Below, piece after piece: positions 13,337-23,438 of a stretch of 64,000 bases of DNA. A program made the translations under genes and the position numbers. Source of the stretch: an uncultured SAR116 cluster alpha proteobacterium (lineage in GTDB: Bacteria; Pseudomonadota; Alphaproteobacteria; Puniceispirillales; Marisalimonadaceae); assembly GCA_902623995.1 (NCBI GenBank), contig CACNWE010000011.1:1-64000 (forward strand), written 5' to 3'. Under the pieces are notes generated by a model. The model did no database searches. It saw nothing but the letters and a program-made list of their open reading frames with translations, and had not been told where the DNA came from. Positions within the stretch are counted from its first letter, which is position 1. The number at the start of each line of letters is the position of its first letter.

Positions 13337-15106
13337 TTAATCACCAATAGCTATTCCCTCTCTTCTATGGTCAGATCCTCCGTATAATTTATTATTAATA
13401 TGAATTATATTTAAACCAGACGAAAAATTTCTTAACTTAACTTTATATTTCATATCCTCTAATGAAGGCAACAGCTTACTCATAATAGTATTTTTCTCTA
13501 AATAATAAGTTCCAAATTTATTTATTCCATGAGCTACCGATGCAGCTTCCTGGGCATTTTTTTTCCAATCGATCATTGAAATTATTGCATTTACAACATA
13601 TCCAATAATATTACTTCCTCCAGGACTTCCCAAAATATAAACAGGTTTATTATTTTTTAAGATTATAGTAGGGGCCATAGATGATCTCGGCCTTTTACTA
13701 GGTTCAATACTATTAGCTACTTTTTTTCCATTTTTGAATGATTTAAATGAGAAATCAGTTAATTCATTGTTAAGTAAAAACCCACTATCTGTCATTAATC
13801 TAGAACCAAATCCGTTTTCAATCGTAGTAGTCATTGATAATGCATTTCCATACTGATCTACTATTGAAATATGGGATGTTGATGGAAGTTCTATCGAATT
13901 ATCTGGACCCCATTTCATTGATAAATTACTTGTTAAATTACCAGCTTTAATTTTCTTAAGTTTAATTTTTCTGTTTAATAATTTTGAGCGTTTTTTCAAG
14001 TAGTTATTATCTATTAACTTTTTAACTGGGACATCTATAAAATCACTATCAGCTATATAGATAGATCTATCCACAAAAGCTAATCTTGAGGCATCTCCTA
14101 TTATTCTCCAAGTCTCAGGATTTTTAGGTCCAAGTTTTGAAATATCAAAATTCTCAATCATTCCTAGAATTTGAGCAATTGTTATAGCTCCTGATGAAGG
14201 AGGTCCCATTCCACATACTTGATATCCTCTATAATTTGAACAAATGGGCTTTCTTTCTATAACCCTATAATTAATCATATCCTTAATAGATAAAACTCCG
14301 GGATTATGACTGGCATTATTCACAGTTGAGACAATATCATTTGCAATATAACCATTATAAAAAACTTCCGATCTATTTTTTTCAAAAGCTTTAAGAGTAT
14401 TTGCATAATTTTTATTAAAATGAATGTCACCGGATTCTAGTGGCATACCATTGGGTAAAAAATAGGATTTAGTTTTCAAAAACTTACTTAATGATTCCCT
14501 ACTTTTTTTTATAGAAGAGCTAAGTTTATTTGAAATTACAAAACCATTATTTGATAAATTAATCGCATCATCAAATAATAAAGACCATTTAGTTTTACCC
14601 CATTTTTTATACGCCATTTCAAGTAAAGCTGGAGTACCAGGTGTGCCAACTGATTTTCCTCCTACAACCGCATCAAAAAATTTTAATGAGTTCCCGTTAA
14701 TATCTTGAAATACATTTTCATTAATTAGTAATGGCGCTGTTTCACGACCATCAAGAGTTGTAACTTTTTTTGTTTTATTATCAAAATAAACTAGAAATGC
14801 GCCACCACCAAGACCAGAGGATTCAGGTTCCACTAAACCTAAGACCAATTGAGCTGAAATCATTGCATCTGCAGCAGTCCCCCCATTTTTAAGTATTTTA
14901 GCAGCAGCCTCAGAAGCTTGGGTATTTGCTGTGACAACCATCCATTTATCAGAAATTACTGGTTTACCTTCTTTTTTGAATTTCAGATATTTATTTCCTG
15001 AGTTTAAATTGTAATTTTCTGATTTGTTTAGATCAGATTTTTGTTTCCCAGACGCTAAAATTGGTATAAATAAAAATAAAATAGTTAAAATTTTAATAAA
15101 ATACAT
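13337..15106 (-). CDS. ggt: Gamma-glutamyltransferase
   Basis: This 589-residue precursor starts with a signal peptide (residues 1-20, ending ILASG). It has the substrate-binding DGRETAP segment (Arg121, Glu122) and the autocatalytic site ending in TSHIS, with Thr410 as the predicted nucleophile and cleavage point. PPSSG and GSPGG also match the family. It should hydrolyse glutathione and other gamma-glutamyl peptides in the periplasm, releasing glutamate and Cys-Gly for uptake. It is the last gene of a likely operon TauD-type dioxygenase, DehI-like protein, ggt (gaps 21 and 10 bases). Confidence 0.93.
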   Translation of the reverse strand: MYFIKILTILFLFIPILASGKQKSDLNKSENYNLNSGNKYLKFKKEGKPVISDKWMVVTANTQASEAAAKILKNGGTAADAMISAQLVLGLVEPESSGLGGGAFLVYFDNKTKKVTTLDGRETAPLLINENVFQDINGNSLKFFDAVVGGKSVGTPGTPALLEMAYKKWGKTKWSLLFDDAINLSNNGFVISNKLSSSIKKSRESLSKFLKTKSYFLPNGMPLESGDIHFNKNYANTLKAFEKNRSEVFYNGYIANDIVSTVNNASHNPGVLSIKDMINYRVIERKPICSNYRGYQVCGMGPPSSGAITIAQILGMIENFDISKLGPKNPETWRIIGDASRLAFVDRSIYIADSDFIDVPVKKLIDNNYLKKRSKLLNRKIKLKKIKAGNLTSNLSMKWGPDNSIELPSTSHISIVDQYGNALSMTTTIENGFGSRLMTDSGFLLNNELTDFSFKSFKNGKKVANSIEPSKRPRSSMAPTIILKNNKPVYILGSPGGSNIIGYVVNAIISMIDWKKNAQEAASVAHGINKFGTYYLEKNTIMSKLLPSLEDMKYKVKLRNFSSGLNIIHINNKLYGGSDHRREGIAIGD

Positions 15107-15116
15107 AATTAATTTT

Positions 15117-15968
15117 CTAGTTATTCAAATCTAAGAATTTTTGTTTTTCTATCCATTTTTGCATAATGAAGCCAATTACAACCATTCGTATAACCTTATC
15201 TTTTTCGTACACGTAACTTTTAATTACAGAATAAGCCTTTGAAGATAAATCATTTTTAAAATAAAATTCTGCTTCTATTAACAAACCTCTGTCTTGTAAA
15301 TATTTTTGAGTTTTAAACAGTAATGATTGAAGAACTCTTTCCTCTGATAATTTACTGAGTTTTATATACATTATTTCAAGAAAAAAAGGCCAGTGGGCCA
15401 AGTGTCTCCATAAAGTTGCTACATGAGAATTTTTTCCATTTGGTGCGCATATACTGTTCACAGTACGTACTAACTGCCAAATATTGGGTTTTATTTCTTC
15501 TTTTTTTTGGAGTTTTTGTAGTACAGGCCAAATTATCTTTTTTTTGTTATTTTTGGGAATCTTTAAGCAACTTGGAAAATTTTGTTTGATAATTGAGTGC
15601 AATACAACCATATTCATCCCATTTGAACGGTTATATGCTTTCAAAATAACCAAAATTTCTTCCCAATCTTTAGGGGTAAGTCTACATTTTGAAAGTTCAT
15701 CATCTGTAAATTTCGGCATTAAAGGAAGTTTAATTTCTTCAATTATTTCTTTTAGTTTATTTTCAGGATTCTGTGTTTCATAGATTGGTCTAGCAATAGT
15801 CCAAATTTTTTTTAAACTATCATCAATCTCTGCCAAACCTCTCCATATAGATGTTATAAGTGGAATATTCATAGTCTCTCTAATATCTTTGAAAATTTTT
15901 GCATTTTCTCCAATAGCTTCTTTTTCATCTATAACTGAAACTGGGTCATAAGAAATATCAGAGTTCAT
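15117..15968 (-). CDS. DehI-like protein (group I 2-haloacid dehalogenase family)
   Basis: This 283-residue all-helical protein shows two similar halves. TSIWRGLAEIDDSLKKIW near residue 40 and VATLWRHLAHWPFFLEIMY near residue 195 look like the internal repeat of DehI, whose members are pseudo-dimers of this length and hydrolyse 2-haloacids. I recognise the repeat pattern but cannot confirm the catalytic Asp and Asn, so a real dehalogenase activity is uncertain; the same fold includes many uncharacterised marine proteins. It lies between a TauD-type dioxygenase and ggt in one operon. Confidence 0.5.
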   Translation of the reverse strand: MNSDISYDPVSVIDEKEAIGENAKIFKDIRETMNIPLITSIWRGLAEIDDSLKKIWTIARPIYETQNPENKLKEIIEEIKLPLMPKFTDDELSKCRLTPKDWEEILVILKAYNRSNGMNMVVLHSIIKQNFPSCLKIPKNNKKKIIWPVLQKLQKKEEIKPNIWQLVRTVNSICAPNGKNSHVATLWRHLAHWPFFLEIMYIKLSKLSEERVLQSLLFKTQKYLQDRGLLIEAEFYFKNDLSSKAYSVIKSYVYEKDKVIRMVVIGFIMQKWIEKQKFLDLNN

Positions 15969-15989
15969 TTTAAATCATACAATTAAATT

Positions 15990-16895
15990 TTAATTATTAT
16001 TTAATCTTACTTCATTTGAAAATGGACCAAGAACAGGAACTTCTCCCTCAACAGTTCCCCTAATCATTGCTCTTCTATACTTAGCGTAATCATAGGGAAT
16101 TACCCTATGTAACAACACTCTATTATCCCACATGATAAGATCATTTTTCTGCCACTTATGAGTATAACAAAATTTAGGCTGGCTAATATAATTAACAAGC
16201 CATTTATGCAACTCCTTACCTTTTTCCAGACTCATTCCACCAATTTCTAGACTCGTATTAGAAGTAAAATAAAGAGATTTTCTAAAGTCTCTGTCGGGAT
16301 GAACTCTTACAATAGGATGAGTTACGGGTGGAAAGTTAGATTTTTCTTCATAAGTAAGTTCTGGAAGGCCAGGTTCTAATCTTCTAATATCATTGTAAGA
16401 GTGAACTTGGTGTAATGGTTCTAAAAGAATTTTTTTATCCTCAGGTAAATGATCATATGCTAACAACATATTTGAAAACTGAGTTTGCCCCCCTTCTGCT
16501 TTAGGGGGTAAAGTTTCTTGACCATAGAGGATAGAAAAAATAGATGGTAAATATCTGTAAGAGCTATCTGTATGCCACCTTGAATTATTTTTTTGGAGAA
16601 TAACTCTTTGGTCATAAGGATCTAAATGTTCGCCATCTTCAGAAACATTAGAAACATTAAATATTTCTATTTTTCCCTTTGTTTTATCTTTTTCTGGATA
16701 GGCCTCTAATTTACCAAAGTTTTTTGTAAAAGTAGCAAGTGTATCGCCATCTAATTTTTGATTTTTAAAGCATATGAAATGTCTATCTTGAATAGTTTTT
16801 TTAAGTAAATTTAATTCATCATAACCAATTTTTTTTGAGCAATCAAAACTTCTTACTTCTACACCAAAATTGTCAGTTAAGTTTTTAATATCCAT
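15990..16895 (-). CDS. TauD/TfdA-family Fe(II)/2-oxoglutarate dioxygenase
   Basis: This 301-residue protein has the facial triad of the family: WHTD (His108, Asp110) and a distal HRVIPYD (His263), followed by the 2-oxoglutarate-binding arginine in YRRAMIRG (near 275). It should hydroxylate a small organic acid, sulfonate or carnitine-like compound using 2-oxoglutarate and oxygen. The substrate cannot be assigned; proximity to a YeiH-type exporter allows a sulfonate, while the operon with a DehI-like gene suggests another acid. It diverges from the VOC gene over a 120-base region containing a TTGTTA/TAACAA palindrome. Confidence 0.85.
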   Translation of the reverse strand: MDIKNLTDNFGVEVRSFDCSKKIGYDELNLLKKTIQDRHFICFKNQKLDGDTLATFTKNFGKLEAYPEKDKTKGKIEIFNVSNVSEDGEHLDPYDQRVILQKNNSRWHTDSSYRYLPSIFSILYGQETLPPKAEGGQTQFSNMLLAYDHLPEDKKILLEPLHQVHSYNDIRRLEPGLPELTYEEKSNFPPVTHPIVRVHPDRDFRKSLYFTSNTSLEIGGMSLEKGKELHKWLVNYISQPKFCYTHKWQKNDLIMWDNRVLLHRVIPYDYAKYRRAMIRGTVEGEVPVLGPFSNEVRLNNN

Positions 16896-18895: not shown

Positions 18896-19993
18896 ATGAA
18901 AATAACTAATTTAGAGGTTTACGAATTAAAAATACCATTTTCAATAGGCATAAAATCATCCTCAGCTGACTTTTTGAAACAAGATGGAATGGATTTTTGT
19001 GTTATCAAAATTGAAACAGATAACGGTATTACTGGTTGGGGTGACGCATTTTCATTTAATTGTAGAAGAGCTGTTTCAGAAGTAATACTAAATATGGTTA
19101 AACCACATCTAATTGGAAAAAATCCATTAGATGTTCAGAATATAAATTTTGAATTGCAAAAAAAACTCCATCTTTTTGGACGTTATGGGATTACAATGTT
19201 TGCAATCAGTGGAGTAGATATTGCTTTGTGGGACATTGTAGCCAAAAATAGTAATTTACCATTGTGCAATGTTTTAGGATCAGCGGGTATTAAAAAGATA
19301 CCCGCATATGCAAGTTTATGGCGCTATGAAAATAAGGAGGCAGTTAAAGATAGATGTTCAAACGCAAAAAATTTGGGATATAATTATATAAAATTACATG
19401 AAGTATTCACATCTGAAGTTAGAGCTGCTAGGGAAGCACTTGGTGAAGAGATCCCAGTTATGGTTGATACAAATTGTCCATGGACAAAAGATGAAGCAAG
19501 ACAAATACTAAATAGTTGGGAAGAATTTAATTTATATTGGGTTGAGGAACCTATAAATCCTCCAGAAGATTTTGAAAGTTTGTCTAATATTAGATCTGAG
19601 TCACTTATTCCATTAGCAGCAGGAGAAAATGCTTGTACATCATTTGAGTTTAAAAAAATGTTTGAAGCTGAAGCTGTTGATTATGCTCAACCAAGTGTAA
19701 CAAAAGTTGGTGGTATCACTGAATTTAATAAAGTTGTTTCAATTTCTCAAACTTATGGAGTACAGATAATGCCGCATTCCCCTTATTTTGGACCAGGGTT
19801 TTTAGCTACATTGCATCTTGCTCAATCAATGCCTAATCCAGGCCTTTTAGAAAGGTTTTTTATTGACCTTGAGGCTTACTTATATCCTGAAGATATTTTT
19901 ACTCCGAAAGATGGTTTTTTTAAAATTAATGGTGGTATAGGTTTGGGTTATGAACCTGATGTAAATGTATTAAAAGACTACATTGTAAAATAA
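18896..19993 (+). CDS. Mandelate racemase/muconate-lactonizing (enolase superfamily) enzyme
   Basis: This 365-residue protein has the capping domain (1-125) and a TIM barrel carrying the three metal ligands in VDTN, VEEP and AGEN, a catalytic lysine in KLHEV and the barrel-end histidine in PHSPYFGPGF. The single Lys with a His partner fits the mandelate-racemase subgroup: acid-sugar dehydratases and racemases. With the SDR two genes upstream it suggests oxidation and dehydration of a sugar acid or similar hydroxy acid. The substrate is unknown. It ends two bases from the convergent DUF3726 gene. Confidence 0.85.
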   Translation: MKITNLEVYELKIPFSIGIKSSSADFLKQDGMDFCVIKIETDNGITGWGDAFSFNCRRAVSEVILNMVKPHLIGKNPLDVQNINFELQKKLHLFGRYGITMFAISGVDIALWDIVAKNSNLPLCNVLGSAGIKKIPAYASLWRYENKEAVKDRCSNAKNLGYNYIKLHEVFTSEVRAAREALGEEIPVMVDTNCPWTKDEARQILNSWEEFNLYWVEEPINPPEDFESLSNIRSESLIPLAAGENACTSFEFKKMFEAEAVDYAQPSVTKVGGITEFNKVVSISQTYGVQIMPHSPYFGPGFLATLHLAQSMPNPGLLERFFIDLEAYLYPEDIFTPKDGFFKINGGIGLGYEPDVNVLKDYIVK

Positions 19994-19994
19994 A

Positions 19995-20615
19995 TTAATA
20001 TCCTGCTCCAGATTTGGACGTTTCACTTTCTGGAACATAAGTTTCAAAAGCCATTGATTTCAATCTTTCCCAACATTTACCGTTAAGATTAGTTACTTCT
20101 TTATTTTTTTTGAAACTAGTAAATTTAGTATTTTTTTCCTCTATATAATTATATGTTTTTAAGGAAGAATAACTAGTAACTTTAGTATCTAGATTTGAAT
20201 TAACATATATTTTTTTTTCTTTTGTAAATGCAATTATCTCTTTTTGCTCATTTTCTAATGTCAAATTAATTTGTTGTTCTTCTGCAATTATTCCCATAGC
20301 CGCAAGTAAAAATTTTGAGTTATCTATATAACCCTCCCAAGTAATTTTGTTTGCAGAAACATATTCTACTAAAAGCAATCCCATTAAAGCTGAAGCTAAT
20401 GGTTTTTTATTTGTGTTTTCATTAATTGAAATACTTATTTCTTTATTTTTATAAAGGTCTGCTGTCTTTAAAATTGATCCAAGAAAATTTTGACCGTGTT
20501 GTGCTAACCATTTTGCTTTATTTGCACAGTCTTTAGCTAAACTCCACTCAATGTTAACACTTCTGAGTGCTTTATAAGTTTCTGAGTATATCTCATTTAA
20601 AGATACACTGATCAT
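19995..20615 (-). CDS. DUF3726-like protein
   Basis: This 206-residue protein begins SVSLNEIYSETYKALRS and continues to NKAKWLAQHG, a pattern I recognise from DUF3726, whose members are usually ~200 residues and lie beside proteins like the next gene upstream. An in-frame start 11 codons earlier (20648) exists, but the ATG at 20615 lies two bases after the upstream stop and begins at the usual family position, so it was chosen. The function is unknown. There is no signal peptide or membrane segment. It ends the operon M19-like protein, 567-residue protein, DUF3726. Confidence 0.65.
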   Translation of the reverse strand: MISVSLNEIYSETYKALRSVNIEWSLAKDCANKAKWLAQHGQNFLGSILKTADLYKNKEISISINENTNKKPLASALMGLLLVEYVSANKITWEGYIDNSKFLLAAMGIIAEEQQINLTLENEQKEIIAFTKEKKIYVNSNLDTKVTSYSSLKTYNYIEEKNTKFTSFKKNKEVTNLNGKCWERLKSMAFETYVPESETSKSGAGY

Positions 20616-20617
20616 AA

Positions 20618-22321
20618 TTATACATTTGGTAAATTGGGGAAAAGCCAATCATTTACGTTTGTTTTCCATAATTCATTGGGCAATGGGGCTCCTTGAAATA
20701 GAGTTATTCTTGTCCATAAATTAGATTTAGGATCATACTTTGAGGCTCCAAAAAAACTTAATTTACACCTTAAAATATCAATTGGCTTCATATCTTTACC
20801 AATTAAATTATTTTGTATTTCGCTGTATGGCATTGATTTATTAATGATAACTCTCTTAATTATATTCCTTAATTCTGGGTAATTTATCATCACTTCAGCA
20901 GCAGTCATATTAGAAGGTAATTTATTTAATTTATTCACTGCTTGTTTTATCTGATGAGCAATATCAAAAGGTAGCTGTTTTTCTATTCCAGCATCTTTTT
21001 TTGTAATACCAAGACGTGGTTCTAATTTTGTTTGAGAAGTATACCAGAAACAATAATTTTCTTCAGGTTTTGAAGTGTCTATTTTAATAGCCCAATTAAA
21101 ATTTTCTTTAATAATCTCAATTATATCATTAACTGTATAACTTATTAAAACAGATTTTTTTTCTTCTGCTCCCATATTATTTATTAAATCCTCTAATAAC
21201 TCAGGAAAAGGTTCAATAAAGATAGAGTTTAGTATTTCTTGTGTTTCTAAAGTGATATCATCTTTAAAGAAATTAAAAAATCTTTTAATAGGATAATGAA
21301 AATTCAAAAGCTTAGTAAGTTCTTCATTTTGTAAAATTTTTTTCAGGTCTAAGTTTAGCTTCTCAATTTTTTTTGACTGTAATCTATCATCAACTTTCCA
21401 TTGTAAGCTGTATTTAAATGCTTGATGGATATAATTTATAATTTTATTTTGTGTCTTTTTATTTAGTCGTTTAATTGAAAAAACTCTTGATAGAGCTGTT
21501 TCTCTATTATAAATCCATTGATGAATTAACTCTTGATGGTTTACCAAAAACGGAGCCATACCTAAACCCGTAGCATTGCCAACTCCTAAATGTTTTGTGA
21601 GATGTTTGGAAAGAATTACAGATTTTTTACCTCCTTTTTTTTTAGCAAGAAAATTAATTAATTCTATTGAAAAATATCTAACAAGATACACAGTCAACAT
21701 TTCTGCCTGAAAAGGTTTCTGTAAAAAGGTATGTCCGTTGGTTTTAGAAAAATCTTCTATCCCAAATTTACCATTGCCATATACTGCAGTAGTTCTAACC
21801 AGGTAACCAACATCATTGATAAGTTTTTCAGATGGCTGTTTCCCAATTGATAAATCATTTAACACTTTTTCAAATATTCTTTGAGATTTATTAGCTCTAC
21901 TTAAAGTCAACTGTTTTGAATTATGTCTTCCTGCTTCTTGTATCTCCAAATTTTTTGATAATTGATTTAATTCTTGATTATTAGGCACACCTCTAAAAAG
22001 TGAGAAGGTCATATCCCATTTCTCAGCTATAACTCTATCAGTTCTCTCTTCATCACTTATTGAATGACAAAAGATTACAAGTGACAAAGTTTCTTTTTTC
22101 AAAGCTATTTTAATAATAGCACTTCCAATTCCACTATTATCAATATCCCATTGGTAAATTTCTATTTTACTTTTTTGATACTTAAGATCATCAATAAGAC
22201 GCCTTGTGAAAGATAGACGTGTTTGATGAAAGCTTCCTAATCTATCAAGTTTCATAACTGTTGAGGGTGGTCTTATAGGATAATTATAGTCCAAATTTAT
22301 TTTAGTGTTTTGAAAGCTCAT
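20618..22321 (-). CDS. Conserved protein of unknown function, 567 residues
   Basis: This long soluble protein has no domain that I can name, but it resembles a family I recall from roseobacters, with FTRRLIDDL near the start, RTDRVIAEKWD (about 95), GVGNATGLGMAPF (about 250) and a late WYTSQTKLEPRLG (about 435). The middle (300-400) is helical and poorly conserved-looking. It lacks Walker, Rossmann or metal signatures visible by eye. It is three bases after the M19-like gene, with AGGTCAG as ribosome site inside that gene's end, and two bases before DUF3726, so all three should be made together. Function unknown. Confidence 0.75.
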   Translation of the reverse strand: MSFQNTKINLDYNYPIRPPSTVMKLDRLGSFHQTRLSFTRRLIDDLKYQKSKIEIYQWDIDNSGIGSAIIKIALKKETLSLVIFCHSISDEERTDRVIAEKWDMTFSLFRGVPNNQELNQLSKNLEIQEAGRHNSKQLTLSRANKSQRIFEKVLNDLSIGKQPSEKLINDVGYLVRTTAVYGNGKFGIEDFSKTNGHTFLQKPFQAEMLTVYLVRYFSIELINFLAKKKGGKKSVILSKHLTKHLGVGNATGLGMAPFLVNHQELIHQWIYNRETALSRVFSIKRLNKKTQNKIINYIHQAFKYSLQWKVDDRLQSKKIEKLNLDLKKILQNEELTKLLNFHYPIKRFFNFFKDDITLETQEILNSIFIEPFPELLEDLINNMGAEEKKSVLISYTVNDIIEIIKENFNWAIKIDTSKPEENYCFWYTSQTKLEPRLGITKKDAGIEKQLPFDIAHQIKQAVNKLNKLPSNMTAAEVMINYPELRNIIKRVIINKSMPYSEIQNNLIGKDMKPIDILRCKLSFFGASKYDPKSNLWTRITLFQGAPLPNELWKTNVNDWLFPNLPNV

Positions 22322-22324
22322 CTT

Positions 22325-23296
22325 TTAAACTGACCTAAATGATTTCTTGAAAAAATTTAACCAATTTTTACCTTTAATTTTATCAACTTCTTCTTCATTA
22401 AAACCAATATTTTTTAACCCAGTTATAATATTATGCCAGTCTCTATTATCTCTAAACCAAGTCGGCATATTAGGAAAACCTGCGTTAGAAGCAGAGCCTT
22501 CACCATAGTCAATATTTTTAGTCCACTTACCCACTCTCATCCATTCTACAATCCTATCAGGTTGATCTTGGCATAAATCTGATCCGAAACCTACATGATT
22601 GATCCCCATAATATCAACTGTTTTTGCTATCATTGAACAAAAATCTTCTAATGAACAATTACTACTATTATTTAAATGATGTGGATAAAGTGAAAATCCT
22701 AAAATGCCATTACTTTCAGCTAGCTTGGATAAAATATTATTAGATTTATTTCTTTTAGCTGGATGCCAAAAAGATGGGTTGGCATGACTTATAACAACTG
22801 GTCTTTCGGATATTTCAATAGCTTGCAGAGTTGATTTCTCAGAAGAATGAGACATATCAACAACCATTCCAACTCTATTCATTTCTTTTATTACTTCTTT
22901 GCCCATTCTTGTAATACCTGGATCATTTTCTTCATAACAACCGGTGGCTAATAACGATTGATTATTATATGAAAGTTGCATAAACCTTCCACCAAGTCTG
23001 TGAAGAATTTCAACCAAGCCAATATCATCTTCAATAGGTGATGGATTTTGAAAACCAAAAATTATTGCTGTTTTATTTAGTTTTTTTGCCTGCTCAACAT
23101 CCTCCGCAAAATATGCAGGCATTATTAGTGAAGGATATTTTTCAAACCATTTATTCCATTGTTCAAAATTTGATACTGTATCTCTGAATTGTTCATGATA
23201 AGAAATTGTTACATGGATAGCAGTGACATTAGAATTGTTCAATTCTCGGAAAATTTTTTCAGACCAATTACAAAATTGTAAACCATCGATAAGCAT
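22325..23296 (-). CDS. M19 membrane-dipeptidase-like protein with altered metal site
   Basis: This 323-residue TIM-barrel protein has the family's VVDMSH (His150) and VISHANPSFWH (His171) motifs. The N-terminal HxD zinc motif (normally DGHND) reads DGLQF here, with Leu6 and Phe8 in place of the ligands, and the bridging glutamate region reads GFQN (Gln83). The canonical binuclear dipeptidase site is therefore only partly present. It may bind one metal or act on another substrate. No signal peptide is seen, unlike secreted dipeptidases. It leads an operon with two proteins of unknown function. Confidence 0.75.
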   Translation of the reverse strand: MLIDGLQFCNWSEKIFRELNNSNVTAIHVTISYHEQFRDTVSNFEQWNKWFEKYPSLIMPAYFAEDVEQAKKLNKTAIIFGFQNPSPIEDDIGLVEILHRLGGRFMQLSYNNQSLLATGCYEENDPGITRMGKEVIKEMNRVGMVVDMSHSSEKSTLQAIEISERPVVISHANPSFWHPAKRNKSNNILSKLAESNGILGFSLYPHHLNNSSNCSLEDFCSMIAKTVDIMGINHVGFGSDLCQDQPDRIVEWMRVGKWTKNIDYGEGSASNAGFPNMPTWFRDNRDWHNIITGLKNIGFNEEEVDKIKGKNWLNFFKKSFRSV

Positions 23297-23438
23297 GAAA
23301 AAAAATTATCATATTTATTAATTATGGTGAATTATTAAATTTCTCTATTTTTTTTTTTAATAGAATTACTTGTTATTGCCTGAATTTTTTATTATTCAAT
23401 AGGCTTAAAATTATTTGTTTTATAAGTGAGAAATTTAA

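Follow-up and report, generated by a model that had tools for sequence, protein, structure and literature searches.

The window analysed here, a 64,000-nucleotide stretch of contig CACNWE010000011.1 from an uncultured SAR116 cluster alphaproteobacterium, carries on its minus strand an operon of three genes (positions 19995-23296) that encode an M19-like protein, a 567-residue protein of an unnamed family and a protein of the DUF3726 family. These genes form a real module that is common to hundreds of bacteria. We propose, at a probability of about 0.6, that the operon forms the central part of a pathway that breaks down an N-methylated pyridinium betaine, most likely homarine (N-methylpicolinate); the identity of the substrate and all the catalytic steps are inferred. 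That the operon serves the catabolism of some N-methyl betaine is very probable. As a pathway, the SAR116 version most likely represents a system described only recently, in a new variant that is split.

The M19-like gene (22325-23296, minus strand) encodes 323 residues assigned to Pfam PF01244, with a rebuilt metal site and a putative N-deacylase function (homB-like, in the nomenclature introduced below). The 567-residue protein (20618-22321, minus strand) is the candidate catalytic subunit of a ring-opening enzyme (homD-like), and the DUF3726 protein (PF12525; 19995-20615, minus strand; 206 residues counted from its ATG) is its candidate partner subunit (homE-like). The open reading frame coordinates bear out the tight spacing noted in the original prediction, with gaps of 3 bp (22322-22324) and 2 bp (20616-20617). 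The ATG start of the DUF3726 gene is backed by homologues starting at the same MxxSLNE.

Among 289 alphaproteobacterial genomes, the 567-residue protein is encoded in 39 and DUF3726 in 32. Each of the 32 DUF3726 matches lies within 83 bp of a match to the 567-residue protein on the same strand (hypergeometric p = 4e-36), and an M19 gene sits directly upstream of the latter in 63 of the 71 contigs with enough sequence. In Mesorhizobium sp. 131-2-1 (locus L007), the 567-residue protein and DUF3726 are fused into one protein of 814 residues. This co-occurrence in other genomes, together with the fusion, upholds the earlier suggestion that the products of the three genes act together. At the loci lacking M19, the neighbours are mixed and no clear replacement hydrolase was found; the upstream neighbour at L040, L025 and L077 is an agmatinase/HutG-like gene with an SDR gene, an F420-type LLM oxidoreductase gene or an S-adenosylmethionine-dependent carboxyl methyltransferase gene.

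A genome scan detected at least 588 relatives of the 567-residue protein, ranging from Alpha-, Gamma- and Deltaproteobacteria to Acidimicrobiales among the matches listed, plus 168 further plasmid records. The closest relatives among the matches listed belong to SAR116 single-cell genomes, at 88-95% identity. One match (G207:C1:454991-456652, in a 1.2-Mb genome that is 99% complete) contains two in-frame TAA codons, for which decay or sequencing error is possible. A viral origin was rejected, given that searches of IMG/VR and PHROGs gave neither relatives nor a match.

Gene context and a putative homarine route

Roseobacters, Vibrio and Caballeronia share the layout LysR-aldehyde dehydrogenase (ALDH)-M19-(BCCT)-567-DUF3726, which is rearranged in Pseudomonas; the recurrence in roseobacters stated in the original prediction is thus true. 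Mapped on the tree of the 567-residue family, this layout appears in many branches, early ones included. Shinella and Roseateles XES5 add genes for an Ldh_2 protein, a betaine ABC transporter, SoxBDAG, PurU and FolD. With a hom-type ALDH defined by at least 60% identity to the ALDH of Ruegeria TM1040, all 10 genomes that possess one carry it beside the module (p = 7e-10). Such an enzyme is present at 74% identity in G213, a genome of the same order as the window genome. The nearest curated models of the module ALDH are alpha-ketoglutaric-semialdehyde dehydrogenases, which act on a C5 semialdehyde, at scores below their cut-offs.

This layout recalls a characterised system. In the 2026 volume of Nat Microbiol (doi 10.1038/s41564-026-02313-7), Ferrer-Gonzalez et al. 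reportedly describe a homarine catabolism operon, homABCDER. We tentatively take the roseobacter ALDH, M19, BCCT, 567, DUF3726 and LysR genes to be homA, B, C, D, E and R, respectively. The reported homABCDER has the same gene set and order as the roseobacter relatives and involves an Mgd-type N-methylglutamate dehydrogenase. In contrast, the SAR116 operon is limited to equivalents of B, D and E, and its candidate transporter is of the TRAP type and located on another contig. The original prediction of a new hydrolase or metabolite-handling set holds with regard to metabolite handling; its novelty is not supported at the pathway level, given the match in layout to the reported homarine operon. 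Novelty would instead lie at the enzyme level, in the unmatched fold of the 567-residue model and the predicted Ldh_2 ancestry of DUF3726.

Conversion of homarine to N-methylglutamate needs removal of ring C6 with the N-methyl group kept. By analogy with the trigonelline and pyridine pathways, opening at C5-C6 would yield an N-formyl C5 semialdehyde, on which an ALDH would act, then a deformylase, then an imine reductase and lastly an N-methylamino-acid dehydrogenase. The step order of our scheme follows the analogy with these published pathways; a literature search on the trigonelline pathway returned nothing useful. Initially, the 567-residue protein and its DUF3726 partner would cleave the ring at C5-C6 to give an N-formyl-N-methyl C5 semialdehyde. 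An ALDH, hom-type elsewhere and a different one in the SAR116 genome, would oxidise the C5 aldehyde. Afterwards, the M19 protein, an amidohydrolase whose binuclear site would be reduced to one of H150 and H171 (plus Q83 and D240) and which has Arg182 to bind the carboxylate, would take off the formyl group. An Ldh_2-family reductase would then convert the N-methyl imine to N-methylglutamate, and finally a SoxBDAG/Mgd-type dehydrogenase would yield glutamate and a C1 unit. Each of these proposed steps has a corresponding gene type in the clusters, and PurU and FolD fit the released C1 units.

The module might instead degrade another N-methyl or quaternary amine, of the proline betaine, trigonelline, N-methylpipecolate or dimethylglycine type, with the three proteins performing demethylation or amide chemistry. 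The transporters beside the module do vary (BCCT, ProXWV, branched-chain amino acid ABC and TRAP), MttB-like and DMGDH-like neighbours occur at L007 and L036, and the PDB structure 2i5g, which has lost the same metal ligands as the M19-like protein, is similar to the dipeptidase gene in the dgc operon for dimethylglycine. Diverged sets with other transporters point in the same direction: an IclR-567-DUF-M19-ABC transporter arrangement is found in Neorhizobium, on Sinorhizobium meliloti pSymB and on Bosea plasmids (L009, L010 and L011), with 24-28% identity in the 567-residue protein and no ALDH seen. This set, whose Neorhizobium copy has its M19 match divided between two frames, is probably a second pathway that employs the same three proteins on another substrate. 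However, in many lineages, including early-branching ones, the module is constantly accompanied by the C5-semialdehyde-type ALDH, and the layout fits the homarine operon as reported. The Mgd link also fits, since PMC13390433, which cites the homarine operon paper, states that Mgd has a part in homarine catabolism. On balance, we consider the degradation of another amine unlikely.

The rebuilt metal site of the M19-like protein

The M19-like protein matches PF01244 with an E-value of 4e-75 (253 bits against a cut-off of 26), in an alignment that starts at profile position 40 and leaves the HxD segment outside the match. Its strand 1 reads D4-G5-L6-Q7-F8 in place of the canonical D-[GTS]-H-x-D, so that the HxD metal motif is lost. 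G81-F82-Q83-N84 stands where canonical enzymes have the bridging Glu, which is lost as well. H150 and H171 are present, as are D240, the canonical Asp ligand or base, and R182, the canonical carboxylate-binding Arg. Alignment therefore confirmed the replacements at positions 6, 8 and 83 and the two retained histidines that had been read from the sequence alone, whereas D240 and R182 had gone unmentioned in the original prediction.

An alignment of 78 homologues adjoining genes for the 567-residue protein was compared with 30 canonical M19 proteins from the same class. The SAR116 protein is 52-95% identical to most M19s in this position. Q83 is found in all 78, L6 in 75, and Tyr or Phe at position 8 in 76. 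D4, H150, H171, R182 and D240 are each present in 78/78, and Y110, Q107, N111, W252 and R254 are likewise invariant. The canonical proteins have Glu at the Q83 position in 30 of 30 cases and His at the Y110 position in 26 of 30, and example rows show D-x-H-x-D. Given that the substitutions are nearly invariant in the subfamily and Glu is universal in the canonical set, the ligand loss, as judged from these alignments, is an old and fixed subfamily trait and not decay.

Such a loss need not entail a loss of catalysis, as neither the H/H/D set nor the carboxylate-binding Arg varies and the candidate new ligands are nearly invariant. Three residues are newly conserved, namely H34 (74/78), H207 (76/78) and C242 (74/78), and might make up all or part of a metal site that has moved. 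The nearest PDB structure, 2i5g, has the same substitutions, and its 'IDGL' and 'GFQN' line up with those of the SAR116 protein in a gap-free alignment. We take it to be PA5396 of P. aeruginosa, the M19-like gene of the dgc operon. It shares with the SAR116 protein the M19 fold, the H/H/R/D pattern and a context of N-methyl amine catabolism; however, it is devoid of the H34, H207 and C242 of the module subfamily, and is paired with dgcAB rather than with 567 and DUF3726. A literature search for DUF3726 or PA5396 by name found nothing.

E. coli NagA is an N-deacetylase with a mononuclear site. Although it belongs to a different family, it likewise has the beta-metal site (carboxylate/amide, His, His) alone, together with a catalytic Asp, and acts on N-acyl groups. 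We favour N-deacylation because the remaining site of the M19-like protein resembles that of NagA, and give a deacylase function about an even chance.

The loss of three canonical ligand positions might alternatively mean that the M19 protein has no catalytic activity and serves as a scaffold or sensor, leaving the chemistry solely to the 567-residue protein and its partners. This is quite improbable in view of the invariant H150, H171, R182, D240, Y110, Q107, N111, W252 and R254, and of the newly conserved H34, H207 and C242, which are unlike a decaying active site. Canonical M19 enzymes such as human renal dipeptidase, GliJ and Sco3058 have the fold and the equivalents of H150, H171, R182 and D240 in common with the SAR116 protein, in which the HxD motif, the bridging Glu and the active-site His (Y110 position) are replaced; dipeptidase activity is thus not expected, in keeping with the original prediction. 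An ordinary dipeptidase in a peptide-scavenging operon, with its neighbours unrelated by chance, would suit the above-cut-off Pfam M19 match and a gamma-glutamyltranspeptidase gene some 7 kb away, but is highly improbable given the fixed ligand loss, the betaine/C1 gene context and the fact that 567 and DUF3726 strictly co-occur with this M19.

The 567-residue protein and its DUF3726 partner

The 567-residue protein has no Pfam, NCBIfam or PHROGs match and no meaningful PDB sequence match, which agrees with its earlier description as a protein of no assigned function. Its AlphaFold2 model is of high score (predicted local distance difference test, pLDDT, 90.9; predicted template modelling score, pTM, 0.92). 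A Foldseek search with this model gave no match in the PDB (best E-value 0.058, probability 0.08, TM-score 0.09) or among viral models, and a PDB profile search from the family alignment found nothing. The predicted fold would thus be new with respect to solved structures, the comparison being with the PDB and viral models.

The DUF3726 protein scores 21.7 bits against PF12525, just below the cut-off of 22.1, and 23.6 bits, above it, in a six-frame search; the profile matches 42 of the 44 aligned family members at E ≤ 0.5. Its model is of medium confidence (pLDDT 78, pTM 0.78). The top 24 Foldseek matches in the PDB are all type-2 malate/lactate/sulfolactate dehydrogenases (Ldh_2), with a best E-value of only 0.016, probabilities up to 1.00 and TM-scores by query of 0.33-0.58. 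HHalign gives a probability of 87% over 59 N-terminal columns. The Ldh_2 family includes type-2 malate and sulfolactate dehydrogenases and delta1-piperideine-2-carboxylate reductase, which DUF3726 may resemble in its predicted fold and does resemble in its N-terminal profile. At about 206 residues, against about 340 in Ldh_2, DUF3726 is 40% shorter; it has no match to the Pfam Ldh_2 profile (PF02615), the catalytic SHG motif is absent from its alignment, and a PDB profile search from this alignment found nothing. Structure prediction suggests that DUF3726 is probably a shrunken relative of Ldh_2-type dehydrogenases. In the family alignment, conservation is far higher in the C-terminal tail, VPxTExSRxxGAGAGxxDND, than in the middle of the protein; the SAR116 tail (within 19995-20050) stops earlier, at SKSGAGY.

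Ring opening was assigned to the 567-residue protein and DUF3726 by elimination. It is the weakest step of the scheme, and we rate it a little short of an even chance. More tentatively still, the 567-residue protein may found an enzyme class of unseen fold that cooperates in opening a pyridinium ring with DUF3726, a shrunken relative of Ldh_2 whose own catalytic motif is lost, while the M19 protein would remove N-acyl groups at a single-metal site that has been relocated (H150, H171 and H207/C242/H34).

A probable split arrangement in the SAR116 genome

A second cluster in the same genome (contig C4:14000-33900, locus L101) brings together genes for an Ldh_2 protein, RidA, a TRAP transporter and SoxBDAG. 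The Ldh_2 protein is 51-61% identical to module-adjoining Ldh proteins of other marine genomes, whereas neither of its two paralogues exceeds 31%. Among 10 genomes with an Ldh of this type (at least 50% identity), 8 have the gene for the 567-residue protein (p = 2e-6), and in G109, of the same order, the Ldh gene directly follows M19-567-DUF3726. The TRAP proteins are 47, 41 and 61% identical to a set encoded directly downstream of M19-567-DUF3726 at L029. The single full-length SoxA-family gene of the genome also lies on C4, and its product is 54% identical to the Ruegeria TM1040 neighbour, with Sox and Mgd not told apart. This cluster is probably the other half of the pathway.

Several points weigh against the proposed homarine route. 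A search of the SAR116 assembly, which is 89% complete, found no hom-type ALDH (best identity 33%); the nearest models of the candidate replacements are HpaE/BADH-like and SSADH-like, which is not decisive. Neither BCCT nor LysR adjoins the operon, BCCT not having been searched genome-wide. The putative match to the characterised hom genes of R. pomeroyi is one of gene layout, and the ring-opening activity of the 567-residue protein is likewise putative. Loss of the Glu at position 83 may leave the M19-like protein without any metal. Moreover, five contigs with wide upstream sequence have the gene for the 567-residue protein and no detectable M19, and the diverged Sinorhizobium/Bosea set suggests that the module serves more than one substrate.

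At the flanks of the operon, the divergent intergenic region (23297-23438), which would hold any operon promoter, gave no match in an Rfam search and no promoter signal above chance. At the other end, an enolase-superfamily gene (18896-19993, plus strand) converges on the operon, with 1 bp separating its stop codon from that of the DUF3726 gene. This convergence had been correctly predicted; a functional link was rejected, as the adjacency is seen only in near-identical SAR116 genomes, and for the same reason the enolase-superfamily/SDR/VOC operon is not counted in the system. Farther away, a run on the minus strand (13337-16895) encodes gamma-glutamyltranspeptidase, an unannotated 283-residue protein and a TauD-family dioxygenase.

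Among the osmolytes of phytoplankton, homarine is an abundant one. Should the proposed route be true, widespread unannotated genes, those of SAR116 included, would be tied to homarine turnover, and the pathway could be split across a genome and combined with a TRAP transporter. Two families of unassigned function, the 567-residue protein and DUF3726, would thereby become testable. Enzymologists well outside marine microbiology would then take an interest both in a ring-opening enzyme whose fold the PDB lacks and in a dipeptidase fold adapted to a reduced metal site.

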